In this document: positions 1 to 7,662 of the stretch, one piece after another
Numbering within the stretch: position 1 is the stretch's first letter
How the letters are laid out: each line of letters begins with the position of its first letter
Source of the DNA: Anaerolineales bacterium
GTDB taxonomy: Bacteria; Chloroflexota; Anaerolineae; 4572-78; NAK82
Length of the DNA stretch: 7,662 bases
Direction of reading: 5' to 3'
Assembly (NCBI GenBank): GCA_024643945.1
Contig: JAHELX010000284.1
Coordinates: 1 to 7,662 of the forward strand
The notes under the pieces: model-generated
Databases searched by the model: none
Told to the model about the DNA's origin: nothing
Seen by the model: the letters and a program-made list of their open reading frames with translations, nothing else
Position numbers and translations under genes: made by a program

Positions 1-802
1 CACCCACGCCCAGAGGGTTGAGCAGCTTGAGGCGGATACGCTCCGCTTCGTCCAGGGTAGAGACGATGTAACGCTCCAACGCCTCGAAGCGGCTGGCAGC
101 CAGCAGGCCGGCCCTATCCCTCCCTATCTTGGCCCGGAGGGCTTGCCGGGCTGACACCGGGAAAATCTCGGGCGTAAAGCCCAACAGCGTGCGGGCATTA
201 TCGGCGATGAAGGTTTCGATACGAGCGACATCTTCGGGCGTCTCCAGAATGTCAATCTTATTGACGATAACCACTACCTTTTTGCCCCAGTCACGAATAC
301 GTTGCAGGAACACACGCTCACTCTCGGTGAAGGGACGATCGGCGGAGGTCACAAAGAGCACCATATCGGAGCGCGGGACGAATTCCTGGGTGATGGCCTC
401 GTGCTCGCGTTGGATGGCGTTGGTGCCAGGCGTGTCTACGATGTTAATCTCCCGCAGCAACTCCATGGGAGCAGTTATTACGTCAATGTAAGACTCGGCA
501 ATAGTCCGCTCAGTCGTAGGGCCATGCTTAAGCAAATTGATGCGAGTGGTGGTGGGCGTGACCCCCTCCTCCAGCACCGGCTGGCCGAGCAAGGCGTTGA
601 TAAAAGCACTCTTGCCGGAGTTGAATTCGCCGACGACGACTAACAAAAAAAGCTCGTCGAGCTGGTGGATGGAGCGATCGAGGGTAGTCCGGTCGTCAGG
701 TGTTACGTCGAACCGGGCCAGGGCAACCCGCAGGTCACTCAGCCAGCGGCGCTCGTCGGCCAGGAGTTCCTCTTGTTGATTGGTGAGAATACGTCGGAGC
801 AT
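1..802 (-). CDS. Dynamin-like GTPase, N-terminal G domain (partial, cut by left edge)
   Basis: No ORF closes here because the gene runs off the window, but reading the minus strand from the ATG at 802 gives 267 open codons. The GTPase motifs are all visible: P-loop GEFNSGKS (residues 58-65), switch-I threonines in TPTTTR (82-87), DTPG (123-126), NKID (181-184) and SAR (217-219). The P-loop is preceded by a helical stretch of about 50 residues, as in bacterial dynamin-like proteins. Such proteins bind membranes and remodel or repair them through GTP-driven assembly; this role comes from the family and is not shown here. The start is fixed: an in-frame TAG lies four codons upstream at 814-812, no other start codon lies between, and a purine-rich ribosome binding site (AGGGGGAG, 813-806) sits 3 bases before the ATG. 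The helical stalk and any membrane-binding segment would be beyond the left edge. An Era-like or other septation GTPase is less likely, because the GEFNSGKS loop is typical of dynamin relatives. Confidence 0.9.
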   Translation of the reverse strand, partial: MLRRILTNQQEELLADERRWLSDLRVALARFDVTPDDRTTLDRSIHQLDELFLLVVVGEFNSGKSAFINALLGQPVLEEGVTPTTTRINLLKHGPTTERTIAESYIDVITAPMELLREINIVDTPGTNAIQREHEAITQEFVPRSDMVLFVTSADRPFTESERVFLQRIRDWGKKVVVIVNKIDILETPEDVARIETFIADNARTLLGFTPEIFPVSARQALRAKIGRDRAGLLAASRFEALERYIVSTLDEAERIRLKLLNPLGVG

Positions 803-805
803 AGA

Positions 806-813
806 CTCCCCCT
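806..813 (-). promoter_or_regulatory. Ribosome binding site of the dynamin-like GTPase gene
   Basis: The minus strand reads AGGGGGAG, then three bases, then the ATG. With the in-frame stop at 814-812, this site settles the start codon of the GTPase gene. Confidence 0.7.
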
Positions 814-830
814 ACGAAGCCCGTCGTTGC

Positions 831-929
831 CTAATACTGCAACCTCACTTCGGCCCGAAACGAGATTCCCTTCGGCCCAACCTCACCTGTGCCGGTGCGC
901 CAGAATGATATGTGAGGTTGTAGTACTAA
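831..929. repeat. Long imperfect inverted repeat filling the gap before the GTPase gene
   Basis: The left arm (831-850) and the reverse complement of the right arm (910-929) agree at 16 of 20 positions; the core pairing of 832-848 with 912-928 has only two mismatches, and each of these is a G-U wobble on one strand or the other. The arms enclose about 60 bases. Inside, CAACCTCAC occurs again at 878-886 (also at 840-848), CTTCGGCCC occurs at 848-856 and 870-878, and TTCGGCCCGAA (849-859) is a palindrome around one central base. Terminal inverted repeats plus internal short repeats in a 99-base unit look like a small non-coding mobile element (MITE-like) or a structured intergenic element. It lies 17 bases past the stop of the upstream gene. 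No run of T follows either arm, so it is not a normal intrinsic terminator. I see no obvious target-site duplication. Confidence 0.6.
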
Positions 930-945
930 CACAGCGATGAAACGC

Positions 946-1767
946 TCAATACACCGCGTCCGGGAAAGTACACACGCCAGCGTGATGGTACAGCCGCTTG
1001 AACATTCCCACTTCCAGCCCTGGCCAGGGCTCTCCCAGAATTCCATCGTGGATGGCCCAACTGCGGCCGCGTACCGTATGCGCCATTTCGGGTTGTCGAA
1101 ATGGGGTGGACCTATCGAGCTTTTCGAAGAGTTCGCCGCCAGGCTCAAATTCGCGGTGAATCCAATCCATCTTGCGCCGGCCACGGATGTAGTTGAACCC
1201 CTGCCATTCCAGAAAGATGGCGTTGTGATAGCCCAACGGGTTGGCCAGATAGATCTCGTGCCCGAGGGCTGCGGCAAAGTTTTCCACCAATTTCTGCTGG
1301 CGGCGCATTTGGTGGAGGCCACGCCGAATCTGGCCGGGGGCCAGACCCGCCTTCATGGCTCGCTCCTCCTCCTCCAGGTTGCGCCGCATCAGGCCAAATT
1401 TGGTCGGCTCGTCTGCCCAATCCCGATCTACGTTAAAACGCTCACTGGAGGGGTCATTGATAATGACGAGCAACACTTCAAGCTGATGATTGCCGGTATC
1501 GCCCAGCTCAAATTGGAAGAGTGGGTCTGGAAAGCCAGGGAAAGGGAGAACCCGGATACGCAGAAAGCCGCTACCTGGGTTGGCTTCCAGATGCACAAGC
1601 TTCACCCCCTCGGCGCTGGTCCAGGCAATGGGCTCAATCCCAAACTGAGCCAACAGGTCATCCGGGATGAGCCTCTGGTAAACGGCCATCTTCTGCTCCT
1701 CCGGCAGAGCGTTAATCTGCCGGATGGAACGCATCGGCACGCCATCGACCAGGATTGGCCCAGCCAT
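946..1767 (-). CDS. Conserved-looking protein of unknown function, coupled to smpB
   Basis: I do not recognise this 273-residue protein. It has no signal peptide, no transmembrane segment and no nucleotide-binding motif that I can see. Residues 1-45 are an amphipathic leader. Residues about 50-115 alternate like a beta-rich domain (FQFELGDTG, LEVLLVIIND). Residues about 125-165 are a highly charged helix (LMRRNLEEEERAMKAG and onward, rich in R, K, E and Q). The C-terminal third is rich in aromatic residues and His (NPLGYHNAIFLEWQGFNYIRG, HDGILGEPWPG, LYHHAGVC). The ATG shares one base with the smpB TAA (TAATG at 1769-1765) and is preceded by AAGGAGAG (1778-1771), so the start is well supported and translation is probably coupled to smpB. 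It ends in TGA at 948-946. Coupling suggests co-expression with SmpB but does not show a role in ribosome rescue. A soluble cytoplasmic protein is the best guess. Confidence 0.85.
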   Translation of the reverse strand: MAGPILVDGVPMRSIRQINALPEEQKMAVYQRLIPDDLLAQFGIEPIAWTSAEGVKLVHLEANPGSGFLRIRVLPFPGFPDPLFQFELGDTGNHQLEVLLVIINDPSSERFNVDRDWADEPTKFGLMRRNLEEEERAMKAGLAPGQIRRGLHQMRRQQKLVENFAAALGHEIYLANPLGYHNAIFLEWQGFNYIRGRRKMDWIHREFEPGGELFEKLDRSTPFRQPEMAHTVRGRSWAIHDGILGEPWPGLEVGMFKRLYHHAGVCTFPDAVY

Positions 1768-2237
1768 TATCTCTCCTTCCAGTGACGGGCAACCACGCGA
1801 TCTATCTCGCGGCGTGTTTCTTTTTCGCGCAGGGCGGCCCGTTTGTCGTACTGTTTTTTACCCCGGCCCAGACCCAACTCCACTTTGGCCAGGTTGTTCT
1901 TTAGATAGAGTCGCAGCGGGACCAGAGTGAAGCCCTTCTCCTGTAACTTGCCAGCAATGCGATTGATTTCACGTCGGTGCATCAGCAGCTTGCGCGGCTG
2001 GCGCGGCTCGTGATTGGCGTACGTCGCTTGATCGTAGGGGGCGATGTGGGCATTCATCAACCACAGTTCGCCTTCTTTGACCACGGCAAAGCTATCGCGC
2101 AGGTTCACATGGCCGGCACGGATGGATTTGATCTCAGAGCCAGTCAATACCAGACCTGCCTCATAGGTTTCTTCGACGAAGTAGTCGTGGCGAGCTTTGC
2201 GATTGGTGGCGATCGTTTTAACAGCGTCGGCGCTCAA
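1767..2237 (-). CDS. smpB: SsrA-binding protein SmpB (trans-translation)
   Basis: SmpB binds tmRNA (SsrA) and brings it to stalled ribosomes, so that the nascent chain is tagged for degradation and the ribosome is freed. The 156-residue product has the full family pattern: [17 protein letters not shown] (12-28), [12 protein letters not shown] (31-42), the barrel strand [20 protein letters not shown] (108-127), and the basic tail [19 protein letters not shown] (127-145), which forms the helix that enters the mRNA channel. The length is normal. The start codon is TTG (2237-2235): in-frame TGA lies upstream within the protease gene, no ATG occurs until residue 61, and GGGGA sits 5 bases ahead. 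The TTG overlaps the stop of the upstream protease gene in the sequence TTGA, and the TAA overlaps the next ATG. No tmRNA gene is visible in the window. Confidence 0.97.
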
Positions 2238-3481
2238 TTTGTCCCCAACAGAGATTCAACCGCCCGCTCTAACTGCGGGTCGCGCCCGTCGACGAAATCT
2301 TCCTGAGTGCGCTCCACGTAGACGTCGGGCACAATGCCCTCGCCCTTGATTTGCTTGCCGCTGGGAGTGAGCCATTCGGCAATCGTCACACGCAGTTCAG
2401 AGCCATCGGACAGGGTGTGGGGGATCTGGACGGTCCCCTTGCCAAAGGTTTGCTCGCCCAATATGGTGCCGCGGCCATTCTCCTGAATGGCGCCAGCCAC
2501 GATCTCGGACGCACTGGCGCTGCCCCGGTTGACCAGCACCACCAGTGGCACATCAAGGGCCACCCCACCCGGTTGTGCTTCGTAGGGCTGCTCTTTGCCA
2601 CCCTTCAGCCGCTCGATGGTGATCACGCCCTGGTCGACGAATTGGCTGCTGACGAAGATCGACTCATCGAGCAGGCCGCCGGGATTGTCACGCAAGTCAA
2701 AGATGAGCCCAGTCAACGGACCATCTGCTTCCAGAGTCTTGATAGCCTCAGCCACCTTGCCCGCGGCACCGCGGCTGAAGTCGGTGAGGCGGACATAGCC
2801 AATGTCGCCTTCCAGTCTATCGGACTCGACGACCTCGATTTCGATGCGAGCGCGTACAACGGATACGTCGAACGGCTCGTCAACGCCATCACGGAAAACA
2901 GTCAGCACCACGGTCATCCCCGCTGGCCCACGAATCAGGCCAATGGCCTCGTAGAGACTCAATCCTTGCAGAGACGTGCCATCCACCGCCAGCACGACAT
3001 CGCCCCGCTTTAGGCCCGCCTCAGCCGCCGGCTGACCTGCAAAAGGCTCAGCGATGACCAAGCGCCCCATCTCATCCATACGGACCGCAGCGCCGATGCC
3101 CTCAAAGCTGCCGCTCACGTCCTCCCGAAAAATGGCCGCCCGGTTCGGTTCGATAAAAGCGGTATTTTCGTCGCCGTAGCTATTGACCATCCCCCGGATT
3201 GCGCCGTAGACCCGATCAGGCTCAGCGGGCACGTCCCCATAGAAGTTCTCTTCAACAAAATTCCAGGCCTCCCAAAACACGTGGAACTCTGGCGGCACAG
3301 CCTGGTCACCGGCGCCGACCTGGGGCGATTGGAGAGCGGTGGGCGCTGCCACGGCTGGCTCCCCCACCAATGACTGCGTCGATCCCGAGACATAACCAGC
3401 ACTAAACGCCCCGAAGACCACCGCTACTGCCAGCACCACCATCGCCATTAACTTGATTATCACCTTAATGAAATCACCCAT
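2234..3481 (-). CDS. ctpA: Membrane-anchored S41 carboxy-terminal processing protease (second paralog)
   Basis: This is a serine protease of the CtpA/Tsp family, which recognises and cuts proteins at or near their C termini outside the cytoplasm. The 415 residues comprise a signal anchor (about 5-30), a linker rich in Ala, Pro and Gln (31-62), an N-terminal helical region (63-125), a PDZ domain (about 126-200, with FEGIGAAV and the AGLKRGDVV loop), and the S41 core (about 225-390). The Ser-Lys-Gln catalytic set is intact: Ser323 in GSASASE, Lys348 in TFGKG and Gln352. [11 protein letters not shown] (262-272) is the usual family signature. The ATG at 3481 follows AGAGGTGGGAAGGAT, a strong ribosome binding site. 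The gene begins 33 bases after the first protease gene and ends in TGA within the TTGA that starts smpB. It closely resembles its neighbour in order and motifs, including the shared tail DPQLERAV, which points to tandem duplication followed by divergence. Confidence 0.95.
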
Positions 3482-3514
3482 ATCCTTCCCACCTCTCTAT
3501 CGCTATTGCGCCCA

Positions 3515-4705
3515 CTACTGCTCTTCCTCTTGCAGATAAGCAACTGCCCGCTCCAATTGAGGATCTGTACCGCCCGCCCGATCCTCCTCGGTCGGAATGA
3601 CTTCGAGGTCGGGCTTGAGTCCCTCTCCGTCAATACGATGCTGGCTGGGGGTCAGCCAGCGGGCGACTGTCACATGCAACGACGACTGATCTGTCAGATC
3701 GTACACCAATTGCACCGAACCCTTGCCAAAAGTTTTTTCGCCGATGAGAGATCCACGTCCGTGATCCTGCAACGCTCCGGCCACGATCTCCGACGCGCTG
3801 GCCGTGCCGCCATTCACCAACACCACCAAAGGCAAATCGAGAGCCAGCCCCCCCTTTTTCACCGAGTAAAACTTCTCCGACTCGTCACGTCGATCCTCGT
3901 AGAGCACGACCCCTTCACGCAAAAACTGGCTGGTCACATCTACCGCAGCATCCAGCAATCCGCCGCCATTGTCGCGCAGATCCAGTATCAGACTCGTGAT
4001 ACCTGCCTCCCTCAAGTCCTGGAGGGCACGTTCCAGTTCACGGCCAGTCCGCTCGGTAAAGAGCCGGATGCGGATGTAGCCAATGGCAGGGTCCTGATCC
4101 AGGGTCCTCCATTCTACCGAAGGAGTCTCGATATTCTTGCGAGTAACGGTCACAACCATCGGATCAGCTACCCCAACCCGCTGCAGGGTAAGCACGACCT
4201 GGGTGCCCACTTCACCCCGGATGAGCAAAACGACCTGGTCGGATGTCATCTCGGGCGTGACAGGCGTGTCGTCTACCCGGAGCACCACGTCTCCTTCTTG
4301 CACCCCAGCCTGCTCGGCTGGCGAGTCGACCATAGGCGTGAGAATGACTTCCCCCGCCTGTCCCCGGGTTATGTAAGCGCCAATGCCTCCAAACTGGCCT
4401 TCCAGTTCTGCTTTTTCCAACGCCCGGGGCTGCGGTTCGACAAAGATCGTATAGGGGTCCTGCAGCGTGCTCAGGGCGCCGCGGATCGCGCCGTAGACGG
4501 GAACAGAGTCTTCGGGAATGTCACCGTAGAACTTGTCTTGGATGATGTGCCATACCTCCCAATACAACCGAAACTGGCTGGCTTCTTCGGGCGTAGGGCT
4601 GTTCCTGGTAAGGTACCAATGAGCGCCATATCCGGCGCCTGCACCCAAGCTAAAGATCATCAGTGTTGCCAGAAGCACCAGGGCAACTCGTGTCGAATTT
4701 CGCAT
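3515..4705 (-). CDS. ctpA: Membrane-anchored S41 carboxy-terminal processing protease (first paralog)
   Basis: This 396-residue CtpA-type protease is the first gene after the promoter at 4748-4776. It has an N-terminal signal anchor (about 6-28, LVLLATLMIFSLGAGAGYGA), a short linker, an N-terminal helical region (about 42-105), a PDZ domain (about 106-180; FGGIGAYI and AGVQEGDVV) and an S41 core (about 206-372). The catalytic residues are Ser303 in TASASE, Lys328 in TFGKG and Gln332, so it should be active. LDLRDNGGGLLD (241-252) matches the family signature. It lacks the longer linker of the second paralog, so its catalytic part probably sits closer to the membrane. The start is taken at the ATG at 4705, which gives a normal signal anchor. 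No good ribosome binding site precedes it; a short hairpin occupies that place instead. It ends in TAG at 3517-3515. Two different S41 proteases in one operon suggest different substrates or regulation, which is inference. Confidence 0.95.
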   Translation of the reverse strand: MRNSTRVALVLLATLMIFSLGAGAGYGAHWYLTRNSPTPEEASQFRLYWEVWHIIQDKFYGDIPEDSVPVYGAIRGALSTLQDPYTIFVEPQPRALEKAELEGQFGGIGAYITRGQAGEVILTPMVDSPAEQAGVQEGDVVLRVDDTPVTPEMTSDQVVLLIRGEVGTQVVLTLQRVGVADPMVVTVTRKNIETPSVEWRTLDQDPAIGYIRIRLFTERTGRELERALQDLREAGITSLILDLRDNGGGLLDAAVDVTSQFLREGVVLYEDRRDESEKFYSVKKGGLALDLPLVVLVNGGTASASEIVAGALQDHGRGSLIGEKTFGKGSVQLVYDLTDQSSLHVTVARWLTPSQHRIDGEGLKPDLEVIPTEEDRAGGTDPQLERAVAYLQEEEQ

Positions 4706-4718
4706 CAGTTTCTAACTG
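4706..4718 (-). promoter_or_regulatory. Small perfect hairpin touching the start codon of the first S41 protease gene
   Basis: On the minus strand CAGTT-AGA-AACTG forms a 5-base-pair stem with a 3-base loop directly before the ATG at 4705, in the place normally held by a ribosome binding site. The nearest purine-rich stretch, AAAGGTGG, lies about 17 bases upstream of the ATG; folding the hairpin would shorten that distance to roughly 4 bases. A role in translation start is possible but unproven, and so short a stem could occur by chance. Confidence 0.35.
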
Positions 4719-4747
4719 AGCCACCTTTATCTTCGAGACTTCAACTC

Positions 4748-4776
4748 ATTGTAACACGGCTGAATCGGGGGAGCAA
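4748..4776 (-). promoter_or_regulatory. Extended -10 promoter for the protease-smpB operon
   Basis: On the minus strand, -10 TACAAT (4753-4748) matches five of six consensus bases and is preceded by TGT (4756-4754), an extended -10 element. A weak -35, TTGCTC (4776-4771), lies exactly 17 bases upstream. Transcription would start near 4741, leaving a leader of about 36 bases before the ATG at 4705. It lies in the only sizeable gap between the nuclease and the protease genes. Confidence 0.6.
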
Positions 4777-4794
4777 ATTGGTTTTTAACAACCG

Positions 4795-6012
4795 TCAACA
4801 TTTTCGCTGCAGGCGCGCCCGGCGATATTCCAAGTCAGCCAGCCATTGATGGCGCTCAGGACGCGGAAAATCGGGCGCGCTGACGAGGGCGATGGCGGCC
4901 TGGGTCCACTGCGCTGCTTCGCGATAGTCGCGCGCTTTGTGTTCGTAAAACTTAGCTAATTCCACGTGCGCGTAAATGTGGCCACTATGTGCCGCCTGGC
5001 GCCATAAAGCAATTGCCGCCGGAAAGTTTCCCTGCCGCTTGTGCGCAAACGACAGCCGCCGCACCGCCTCCCAATACGCCTCCTCCGGCAGATTGTGCGA
5101 TAACCCGCATTCGTATAACCCCGTAGCCGTCTTGAGATGACCCAGATCCTCGAACAGTTTTCCCATCGCTATCAGGTCTAGAGCGTGTTCGACGGCCCCA
5201 CCAAGCGGGTCGCCGAGCAGTTCCGAGACATGGCTCAAGAGGGCAGCCAGCGAAAGCACGTCCATCGCGTTGTGATAAAAGACGCTCTTGAGAGGCCGCG
5301 CGTCACCGCTCCGCAAGTAGTCAAAATACAAACTGGGGATCACCCAACCAGGGACATCCTCCTCGGTTCGGACTGCATCCAAGATGTGCTCTTCGAGAGA
5401 GCCAAGGGCACGGCTGGAGAGACGGTCACGCCATAATCGCCGCGCTAATGGTAAAAGATCCAGATGGGCTGCAGATGCCAGTAGAGGCATTTCACCATTG
5501 GTGACGTAGCGTGCATTCAAAAGCGGGACGTCAAATGCTTTGCCGTTAAACGTTACCAGCGCCTGGCAAGGTTGAAGAAATTCGGCCAGCGCAGCCAGCA
5601 GCGCTGGCTCTTCCATCGGATCACGCATGAAAAATTGGGCCAGTTGAAATACTTCACCCGCGTAGCGACCGACCCCGACCAAAAAGGCATAGGTGCCTGT
5701 ACCGCCTGACAATCCCGTGGTTTCGGTATCGAGAAAGGCAAATGTGCCCGGTGCAACCCCGGCGAGGCGCGGCTCGCGCGCCCACTCAGCGATGACTTGC
5801 AGGGATGCGACGATGCGCAGCGAGGCCCGCCCCTGCCGATGCTCAAGCGGATACTGCCTTTCGACGAGGAAAACCTCACCCTGGGACGTTTCCTGAAAAC
5901 GACCCGGGACGATGTGGTCGATGGGATAAGGGATACGCGGACGCGGCGGCGGCAAATCGCGTGCGCCGACCTTCACGCCCAGTGATTTGAGTTTGTCAGA
6001 GAGTGAAACCAT
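4795..6012 (-). CDS. mrfB: YprB/MrfB-like DEDD exonuclease with C-terminal TPR-like region
   Basis: This protein of 405 residues has an RNase H-fold exonuclease domain of the YprB type. The metal-binding DEDD residues can be placed: Asp95 and Glu97 in FLDTETTG, Asp161 in FNGKAFDVPLL, and His247 with Asp251 in YHNAMDVLSL; LDLL (Asp185) is a further acidic site. The basic N-terminal 40 residues and the segment up to 90 precede the nuclease. Residues about 272-405 form helix pairs resembling tetratricopeptide repeats (ALDLIAMGKLFEDLGHLKTA, FAHKRQGNFPAAIALW, ELAKFYEHKARDYREAA). In Bacillus subtilis, YprB (MrfB) works with the helicase YprA (MrfA) in repair of mitomycin C damage; size, domain order and neighbour match. 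I chose the ATG at 6012, although the frame stays open to 6135: it gives the TAATG overlap with the helicase stop, and the extra 41 residues upstream are only antisense-like translation of helicase coding sequence. It ends in TGA at 4797-4795. Confidence 0.93.
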   Translation of the reverse strand: MVSLSDKLKSLGVKVGARDLPPPRPRIPYPIDHIVPGRFQETSQGEVFLVERQYPLEHRQGRASLRIVASLQVIAEWAREPRLAGVAPGTFAFLDTETTGLSGGTGTYAFLVGVGRYAGEVFQLAQFFMRDPMEEPALLAALAEFLQPCQALVTFNGKAFDVPLLNARYVTNGEMPLLASAAHLDLLPLARRLWRDRLSSRALGSLEEHILDAVRTEEDVPGWVIPSLYFDYLRSGDARPLKSVFYHNAMDVLSLAALLSHVSELLGDPLGGAVEHALDLIAMGKLFEDLGHLKTATGLYECGLSHNLPEEAYWEAVRRLSFAHKRQGNFPAAIALWRQAAHSGHIYAHVELAKFYEHKARDYREAAQWTQAAIALVSAPDFPRPERHQWLADLEYRRARLQRKC

Positions 6013-7662
6013 TACAATTCCAACTGATTCTGCTGACGGATTGACAAGACCTCCAGAATTGCCAATGTTTCTCTCTTGCCGCCAAGGCCGTCTTCCCCAG
6101 CAGGGCCAACACACGAGGGACAGCCATCGACGCACGCACAGGCCGCAACCAATTCATAAGCCCGGCCCATCAGTTCATCGTGGATTTCAAACAAGCGCTC
6201 GCTGAATCCAATCCCGGCCGGCACGTGGTCATAAATTACCACTGTGGGTCGCCCATCAGCCAGCGGTGATTGCGGATCGGAGTGCACGCCCACGTCGCGC
6301 GCGTCGCACATCAAAAAGAGTGGCGAGAGATGAGCCAATACGGAGGCCAGGCCGGCCAGCCCGCTCCGCATACGCACTCCCAATTCGGCACGGCGGTGAC
6401 AAGGTGAGCAAAGAGTCACCAGGTTGTCGATTTGGTTCGCTTGCAGGTATGAGGCAAAACCACGGAAAGGAATTTTGTGATGGACGTGGTGGGCCCGGCC
6501 TTGCTCCGGCGCGCCGCAGTTTTGGCAACGATAGCCGTCGCGCGCCCGTGCCTGGTCGCGCTGCGCCGGCCAATTGGGCCCGTAATCGTTGGGATCATTG
6601 GTCCATAATCCCTGATCGCGCAAGTGTGCCACCGTCTCATCCTTCAGTGCCAGCCAATACCCGGTCGTCATCAGTTCGGTCGGCGGCAGAGAGACCTCGC
6701 CCATGCCAAGTTGCTCGTGCGTGAACCATTTGAGCTTACGAAAACCGGTCACCTGGGTGGTCACGGCAATTTCGCCGTAGGCCTTGATGGCACCACGCGC
6801 CTCGATTTCGCCTAATTTCTCCAAAAGCTGCACCGTGGTTTCACTGCGAGGTTGGGTGTAATAATCCAAATCCACTGCTTGCAACTGCGCGATGTGTTGT
6901 GCCAGATCGAGCCCTTGCACCAGGTACGCTGTCCCCTCATGCAAATAGACAGCTCCGGGGTGCACCATCCAGTGTGCGCTGGCGTGGTCTACCTGGCCGA
7001 TGGTGGTGTATTCATCGCCGTCCGGCACCTGCAGCACCACAGCCTCGGTTGAGGCAGTACGCAGCGAGACATCTCCGGCCGGATAGTGATCCGCCATCCA
7101 GAAGAATTTATCCCCCGATCGGTGCAGGACCCCGGCCTCTTGTAAGAACTGGAGGAATTCCGCCACACGCATCCCTTCGACACGGCCAAAACTTTCTCCG
7201 CCCTGGAACGGCAGCTCAAAGGCAGCACAGCGCAGATGCCCCAGCAAGATGAGAAGGTTATCGGGGTTAATGAGGGCCCGCTCGGGGGAGCGGCCGAAAA
7301 AATAATCAGGGTGCCGGGCCAGGAATTGATCTAACGGATTGGCTGACGTGACCAGGGTTGCCAACGACGCATCGTTTCCCTCCCGGGTAGCTGCAGGTTG
7401 GCGTCCAGCCCGCCCGGCCTGCTGCCACGTGCCGGCGATGGTGCCCGGGTATCCAGCCAGCACGGCCGCGCCCATGCCGCCGATGTCTATCCCCAGCTCG
7501 AGGGCGTTGGTGGCGATCACCGAACGTACCGTCCCTTCGCGTAGACCACGCTCGATCTCGCGGCGTTGGCGCGGCAGGTAGCCACTGCGATAGCCACGTA
7601 CCTCGACCTCACCCCTTCGCCCCTCTCCTGGCAGGAGAGGGGTTGGGGAAGAGCTCTCGCGC
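6012..7662 (-). CDS. mrfA: MrfA/YprA-family superfamily 2 helicase with embedded HNH domain (partial, start beyond right edge)
   Basis: The frame is open from the right edge to TAA at 6014-6012, 549 codons. It carries the second RecA domain of a DEAD/DEAH helicase: YRSGYLPRQRREIERGL (codons ending near 7551), ATNALELGIDIGG (motif V, about 7514-7476) and QQAGRAGR (motif VI, about 7424-7401). Next comes the long C-terminal region of the DUF1998/MrfA family, ending in a zinc-binding cluster, CACVDGCPSCVGP (about 6140-6102). The N-terminal ATPase motifs I-III are outside the window. B. subtilis MrfA is a 3'-to-5' DNA helicase that acts with MrfB in repair of mitomycin C adducts, and the next gene here is a MrfB-like nuclease, overlapping by one base. 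Two oddities stand out: an HNH motif set at about 6381-6566 and a palindromic repeat translated in frame at 7607-7650. A GTG at 7520 falls in the middle of a helicase motif and is not the start. A DISARM-type DrmB or another DUF1998 protein is less likely, given the YprB partner. Confidence 0.93.
   Translation of the reverse strand, partial: RESSSPTPLLPGEGRRGEVEVRGYRSGYLPRQRREIERGLREGTVRSVIATNALELGIDIGGMGAAVLAGYPGTIAGTWQQAGRAGRQPAATREGNDASLATLVTSANPLDQFLARHPDYFFGRSPERALINPDNLLILLGHLRCAAFELPFQGGESFGRVEGMRVAEFLQFLQEAGVLHRSGDKFFWMADHYPAGDVSLRTASTEAVVLQVPDGDEYTTIGQVDHASAHWMVHPGAVYLHEGTAYLVQGLDLAQHIAQLQAVDLDYYTQPRSETTVQLLEKLGEIEARGAIKAYGEIAVTTQVTGFRKLKWFTHEQLGMGEVSLPPTELMTTGYWLALKDETVAHLRDQGLWTNDPNDYGPNWPAQRDQARARDGYRCQNCGAPEQGRAHHVHHKIPFRGFASYLQANQIDNLVTLCSPCHRRAELGVRMRSGLAGLASVLAHLSPLFLMCDARDVGVHSDPQSPLADGRPTVVIYDHVPAGIGFSERLFEIHDELMGRAYELVAACACVDGCPSCVGPAGEDGLGGKRETLAILEVLSIRQQNQLEL
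6381..6566 (-). other. HNH endonuclease domain inserted in the helicase C-terminal region
   Basis: Within the helicase reading frame, about 62 codons carry a full HNH motif set: Cys-x2-Cys in YRCQNCGAP (6527-6516), HHVHHKIP (6491-6468), Asn in QIDNLVTLC (about 6425) and C-SPCH (6410-6396). These are the zinc knuckle, the His pair of the catalytic core, the central Asn and the closing Cys-x2-Cys-His. The domain falls between two stretches that look like the ordinary family C-terminal region: LMTTGYWLALKDETVAHL before it and SGLAGLASVLAHLSPLFLMC after it. It therefore looks like an insertion into a surface loop. All usual residues are present, so nuclease activity is plausible but unproven. Confidence 0.85.
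7607..7650 (-). repeat. Palindromic GC-rich repeat translated inside the helicase gene
   Basis: Positions 7620-7629 and 7633-7642 form a perfect 10-base-pair stem (CCCCTCTCCT with AGGAGAGGGG) around a 3-base loop. CCCC at 7612-7615 can pair further out with GGGG at 7645-7648. From memory, this CCTCACCCC...CCCCTCTCC...GGAGAGGGG...GGGG layout resembles a palindromic repeat scattered between genes in many bacterial genomes. Here it lies in the open helicase frame and encodes a low-complexity stretch, SSSPTPLLPGEGRRGEVEV, directly before the VRGYRSGYLP motif of the second RecA domain. Confidence 0.7.

Follow-up and report, generated by a model that had tools for sequence, protein, structure and literature searches.

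Can a repair helicase carry its own nuclease, and if so, what would the cut be for? The question is raised by a 7,662-nt stretch of DNA from an Anaerolineales bacterium (assembly GCA_024643945.1, contig JAHELX010000284.1, positions 1-7,662; the whole stretch is called here the window), in which an MrfA/YprA-type helicase gene, running over the window edge, contains an HNH endonuclease domain and is followed by a gene for an MrfB-like exonuclease. The explanation that we favour, with slightly more belief than doubt, is that the virus-like HNH domain of this MrfA-type repair helicase, coupled to the motor, nicks DNA and so provides MrfB with a 3' end.

The HNH insert and its conservation

The helicase is closest to MrfA in sequence and structure: it aligns with chain 6znp_A of Bacillus subtilis MrfA with an E value of 7.5e-114, it has the overall MrfA fold, and its Pfam domains, all above their cut-offs, follow each other in the order Helicase_C, WHD_HRQ1, HNH, MZB/DUF1998 (Table 1). 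Because the alignment with 6znp_A is broken at query residues 341/433 and chain residues 634/646, about 91 query residues standing opposite only 11, we set the bounds of the insert at residues 342-432. A confident structure model predicts an HNH (beta-beta-alpha) fold for the insert, which, by its position in the sequence, lies between the OB-like region and MZB, in the connector of the canopy. The original prediction had described a complete HNH domain within a helicase of the MrfA type, ahead of the DUF1998 zinc cluster, and this description is borne out by the PF01844 score of 40 bits, the domain order and the complete motif. The interval given there, 6381-6566 (residues 366-427), spans the HNH core, the whole insert being wider (6366-6638). 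Two checks proposed along with it were run: the alignment to B. subtilis MrfA shows the insert, and the PF01844 search was positive.

The nearest full-length protein (P0001, 865 aa, 96% identity across 98% of helicase residues 100-549) contains a DEAD domain (RecA1 motor), the corresponding part of the window helicase lying beyond the edge. Pfam labels P0001 with DEAD, Helicase_C, WHD_HRQ1, MZB and HNH, and not with SNF2; the combination of HNH with MrfA helicase domains is already visible in databases.

Conservation was followed in an alignment of 123 helicase rows. A total of 138 loci were gathered, 16 were dropped (13 duplicates and the short L047, L050 and L114), and the remaining 122 were aligned together with the window. 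A row was taken as insert-bearing if at least 40 of the 62 core residues were filled, a criterion independent of the motif; 92 rows (window included) had the insert, 30 lacked it, and one (L026) was broken inside it. C379, C382, H394, H395, N413, C418, C421 and H422 were all kept in 92/92 insert-bearing rows, and so were W364 of the YGPNW segment and the MZB zinc-cluster cysteines 508, 510, 514 and 517. The 30 HNH-less rows had 0-7 residues aligned over the core, the exception being L120 with its longer and unrelated linker. In L026 the frame ceases to match the family partway through the HNH domain (near 7197-7270), about 75 bases short of the contig end; this is either an assembly error or a broken gene, the two being indistinguishable, and the row was excluded from the trees and the motif counts.

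Only 15 of the 95 insert columns are invariant, the pairwise identity of the insert core has a median of 56% and goes down to 34%, and the mean conservation of the insert is 0.67, compared with 0.68 for the rest of the protein. When the zinc cysteines are removed, 91 columns are left, and H394, H395, N413 and H422 all fall within the 11 invariant ones (p 1.2e-4). The eight motif residues were also intact in 240 of 240 database proteins (the best 120 of 6294 and the best 120 of 425 matches), and P0168, P0185 and P0188 carry the intact motif though they have no precomputed HNH label. A chance motif was rejected, the rows having been picked by the filling of the insert and all 92 holding all eight residues; a decayed domain was rejected as well, since the motif is intact in every one of the 240 proteins. 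Judged by their position, we take H394-H395 to provide a metal ligand and the general base, and the role of H422 as the last His of HNH is likewise presumed.

It could be argued that the domain has lost its nuclease function and is now a zinc-stabilised DNA-binding or spacing element, which aids the grip of the canopy on DNA. The invariance of the zinc cysteines in the 92 rows would be consistent with this, and small, mostly zinc-binding canopy insertions have been reported in defence members of the YprA family (PMC12458937). However, H394, H395, N413 and H422, which are not needed for zinc, are as invariant as the cysteines, both in the alignment and in the database proteins, whereas position 392, a neighbour of the motif, varies (D in 63% of the 92 rows), and we find the zinc element improbable. 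Freely varying histidines and Asn had been named in the original prediction as the mark of a structural zinc finger, and such variation was not seen in either set. Conservation of this kind supports the nuclease competence of the HNH domain.

Table 1. Features of the helicase and MrfB genes in the window (residue numbers refer to the 549-aa helicase frame)
Feature	Position	Strand	Basis or remark
MrfA/YprA-type helicase, C-terminal 549 aa	6012..7661	-	N-terminal part beyond window; stop TAA 6012-6014
Helicase_C, end of RecA2, residues 18-87	7401..7610	-	PF00271, E 1.9e-8
Winged-helix WHD_HRQ1, residues 131-202	7056..7271	-	PF22982, E 4.2e-9
Insert not present in B. subtilis MrfA, residues 342-432	6366..6638	-	6znp_A alignment break
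YGPNW segment ahead of HNH core, residues 360-364	6570..6584	-	Common to viral HNH endonuclease
HNH endonuclease core, residues 379-424	6390..6527	-	PF01844, 40 bits vs cut-off 21.4, E 4.2e-10
First CxxC of structural zinc site, C379 and C382	6516..6527	-	92/92 rows
H394-H395	6477..6482	-	92/92 rows, 240/240 proteins
N413, Asn of HNH	6423..6425	-	92/92 rows
CxxCH: C418 and C421 (zinc site, second half), H422 (last His of HNH)	6396..6410	-	92/92 rows
MZB (MrfA Zn-binding, DUF1998), residues 439-518	6108..6347	-	PF09369, E 7.2e-21
TAATG, helicase stop and MrfB ATG overlapping by 1 base (6012)	6010..6014	-	
MrfB-like DEDDh exonuclease gene, 405 aa	4795..6012	-	RNase_H_2, E 5.8e-37

Distribution, descent and likely source

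The genome counts in this section were read by eye, and in many genomes only part of the candidates was scored. In the phylum of an Anaerolineales genome (G001), 321 of 400 genomes had some helicase match. The match runs through the HNH domain in at least 49 of the 400, and all 49, when fetched, had the motif by pattern; in at least 97 further genomes it stops short of the HNH, at residue 339-359, and 21 of 21 fetched from these were without the insert. G149 was outside the matches listed in the phylum scan, yet it had an HNH-spanning match in the class scan. In the class of G001 an HNH-spanning match was found in 81 of 120 genomes, some of these matches being partial and all counted by match span rather than by motif. 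At least 32 of these 81 have a second, HNH-less MrfA-type match, and HNH-less paralogues are present in genomes near the lineage of the window (L059 in G002, L060 in G003, L061 in G001). Another member of the class (G944, C11:45508-46809) has a 52% identical MrfA, whose match is broken at the insert, thus loss or exchange of the HNH may occur.

No HNH-spanning match was among the matches listed for the phylum of a Thermodesulfobacteriota-titled genome (198 genomes, 108 matched) or for that of a Clostridia-titled genome (249 genomes, 121 matched). The organism-named sources among the best 120 of 425 matches were Anaerolineae, Thermoflexales, Caldilineales, Candidatus Roseilinea and plain Chloroflexi, all of them members of Chloroflexota. 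The fusion would be commonplace if most MrfA members carried the segment, as had been pointed out at the outset; it was seen in only a part of Chloroflexota, with none listed in the 447 genomes of two other phyla.

On a tree of 122 rows, calculated with the insert columns excluded, the HNH label changes 2 times, compared with 26.9 in shuffles. In a set of 59 rows, hand-chosen from the 122 with the longest rows omitted, the free tree had 2 label changes, and a tree keeping all HNH rows together was better by 23.4 log units (approximately unbiased test, p 0.69). Without L059-L061 and L105 one label change suffices in this set, with a support of 100. All of these trees were built quickly under a simple model, and some of their branches are long. 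Most likely, the HNH insert was gained once, in the ancestor of Anaerolineae-type Chloroflexota; judging by these trees and counts, it is old and clade-wide.

The closest relatives of the insert that we found outside the helicase family are free-standing viral HNH endonucleases. From the YGPNW segment on, the insert shares 50% identity across 74 columns with the C-terminal part of gp38 from the haloarchaeal virus HJTV-4, and it matches phrog_8446 (HNH endonuclease) with an E value of 1.7e-22. The viral proteins differ in having no helicase, and the module is near their C-terminus. The simplest reading is that the module was captured from a virus-type free-standing HNH gene. The same resemblance would also suit a selfish, homing-type passenger sitting in a tolerated loop. 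Passengers come and go, whereas here the label changes just 1-2 times on the trees, the motif is altered in 0 of 92 rows and the only break within the domain is that of L026, close to the end of a contig; we give this idea hardly any credence.

A phage-borne helicase was rejected: viral contigs gave 6 pattern-matching stretches and no relative that aligned over 80% of the query. In a phage collection 38 records matched, none of them covering 80% of the helicase query, and the ten listed align only at query residues 298-428, around the HNH. Plasmid records (tblastn) gave 92 matches, counted irrespective of HNH, all with less than 60% identity and 27 covering 80% of the query.

Coupling to MrfB and the proposed mechanism

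MrfB had been named as the next gene, and this proved to be the case: the two genes overlap by 1 nt and the DEDDh site of the exonuclease is intact. The residues D95, E97, D161, H247 and D251 are kept in 33-34 of 34 rows, the sole miss being a gap. An MrfB homologue is present in all 22 genomes tested, including 16 of 16 HNH carriers. G001-G003 hold an HNH copy and an HNH-less paralogue, and their single MrfB match sits near the HNH copy. In a close relative (L001) the pair is interrupted, about 3 kb (7641-10637) separating HNH-MrfA from the MrfB gene.

MrfA unwinds DNA in the 3'->5' direction and carries an OB-CON-DUF1998 canopy, which moves over the motor when DNA is bound; together with MrfB it acts on mitomycin damage (PMC12458937). 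MrfAB is described as working apart from UvrABC (PMC11194089); the preprint PMC12458937 names a nucleotide excision repair function for it instead. The preprint also states that complementation requires alleles that are closely related. We infer an active DNA nuclease in the HNH domain, a cut that is driven or positioned by the motor and passed on to MrfB, and bulky or crosslinked DNA as the substrate. The helicase would load on an exposed single strand and travel 3'->5', and the HNH, carried by a protein part that moves with the motor, would cut the strand near a blocked or distorted site. The nick would leave a 3' end, from which MrfB, a 3'->5' exonuclease, could remove the damaged stretch. 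HNH cuts leave a 3'-OH end, and since this is the end that a 3'->5' exonuclease needs, an HNH cut would suit MrfB. ZRANB3 is an example of a motor-coupled HNH that can depend wholly on ATP hydrolysis (PMC5481773).

It is also conceivable that the HNH domain cuts, but not for MrfB: the protein could be a structure-specific fork or junction nickase acting at stalled forks, like ZRANB3 or T4 endonuclease VII. The occurrence of MrfB in all 16 HNH genomes tested, and as the overlapping next gene in the window, speaks against such a nickase, which we regard as unlikely, though it deserves serious thought.

Several observations weigh against a motor-coupled nicking enzyme that serves MrfB. With adjacency defined as same strand and within 300 nt, and with only loci having at least 1200 nt downstream considered, MrfB adjoins 11 of 82 HNH loci, compared with 18 of 29 HNH-less loci, thus gene order links MrfB less closely to the HNH form. 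UvrC is present in 21 of 22 genomes, among them 15 of the 16 HNH carriers. A search of the insert model by Foldseek alone gave no match with E < 0.001, and DotN, which is not known to be a nuclease, was among the structure matches of the insert; an HNH-type fold alone is not proof of cutting. Finally, the tree with a single origin required that L059-L061 and L105 be dropped after the first tree had been seen. A replacement of UvrABC by HNH-MrfA was rejected, UvrC being kept in 15/16 HNH genomes. The original prediction had combined helicase, HNH and MrfB into one machine for incision and resection. The HNH within the helicase and MrfB next door stand; joint incision and resection is a hypothesis, MrfB adjoining 11/82 HNH loci though it is present in 16/16 carriers.

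Defence, known systems and the meaning of the fusion

A defence activity against foreign DNA had also been suggested. The protein would then be an enzyme that nicks invading DNA, related to YprA helicases known from DISARM, Dpd, Druantia and ARMADA, with the nuclease placed elsewhere. The defence branch of YprA often bears nucleases (PMC12458937), the module resembles viral HNH enzymes, and two PADLOC models, ZorE and one of DpdF, match it. On the other hand, the helicase is nearest to MrfA in sequence and structure, the fusion persists over a group of class rank, in which the label changes few times, and no defence genes were recognised (Pfam, window proteins; PADLOC, four window proteins and P0001) except for LeoA/LeoBC matches of a dynamin-like GTPase, the upstream side lying beyond the window. 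Of the 25 PADLOC matches listed for P0001, 23 align to the motor and only the two mentioned above to the HNH. With non-defence neighbours and no viral or phage relative covering 80% of the query, the suggestion is unsupported, and we consider a defence role very unlikely.

The window neighbours of mrfAB are, according to Pfam, S41 peptidases, SmpB and the dynamin-like GTPase. Two tandem S41 peptidase genes with PDZ domains (2234-3481 and 3515-4705) lie just downstream of the pair. A 273-aa protein encoded beside SmpB (946-1767, minus strand) has no Pfam match at E 0.001. The GTPase (2-802, minus strand), whose gene is cut by the window edge so that its N-terminal part lies inside, matches LeoA/LeoBC with a best E of 7.8e-16.

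It is useful to compare the fusion with known systems. MrfA/YprA of B. subtilis (6znp, 6znq, 6zns), also paired with an MrfB, has no HNH. Human ZRANB3 differs in being a eukaryotic, PCNA-bound protein with an SNF2-type ATPase and the HNH at its C-terminus. SulCasDinG-HNH of type IV CRISPR is, similarly to HNH-MrfA, a bacterial superfamily 2 helicase bearing an HNH (PMC12345164), but it is a DinG-type, RNA-guided enzyme with a C-terminal HNH. HNH-bearing Cascade subunits (8yha, 8zp7) are RNA-guided as well, and their chain has no helicase motor. The YprA helicases of ARMADA, Druantia, TALON and DISARM belong to the same family and have a nuclease in the chain or in the operon; these nucleases, however, are Vsr, PLD, RNase H or PD-(D/E)xK enzymes, located C-terminally or encoded by separate genes (PMC12458937). 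In the available text of that preprint 'HNH' appears once, within the reference list. The MexAMORF1192P restriction system also combines a DUF1998 translocase with an HNH endonuclease, but there the HNH forms a protein of its own, next to a methyltransferase (PMC4752239).

The PADLOC profile PDLC02859, of a DpdF-type helicase, is, as estimated from match positions, HNH-like at about 2-58 and covers a helicase at about 90-430. It differs from HNH-MrfA in that its HNH is N-terminal and its strong helicase-part matches fall in other genes. Such matches were seen in several HNH-MrfA genomes (G003:C1:1997483-1998433, G013:C65, G012:C23 and others). Since PDLC02859 matches both HNH and helicases, another kind of HNH-helicase fusion may exist in the Dpd defence group.

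No description of an HNH-MrfA fusion was found in the open-access full-text searches made, and it may be listed somewhere. The helicase and the HNH are each of known kinds; their combination and its retention are new. The MrfB paper proposes unwinding followed by excision, and 'incision' is absent from its main text as available to us (PMC11194089). Which enzyme makes the cut in MrfAB repair of B. subtilis appears to be open, and an HNH-armed MrfA could supply such a cut; as this MrfA has a nuclease built in by nature, the question can be tested directly. If motor-coupled nicking is the true function, bacteria would have in this protein a counterpart of ZRANB3, a structure-specific nickase driven by a motor. 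In the wider picture, which we put forward tentatively and with more doubt than the nicking function itself, Anaerolineae-type Chloroflexota may possess a two-protein, UvrABC-independent excision pathway, in which HNH-MrfA unwinds and incises the DNA and MrfB resects from the new 3' end. A module captured from a virus would thus supply the incision step, which is lacking or borrowed in the MrfAB of other bacteria.
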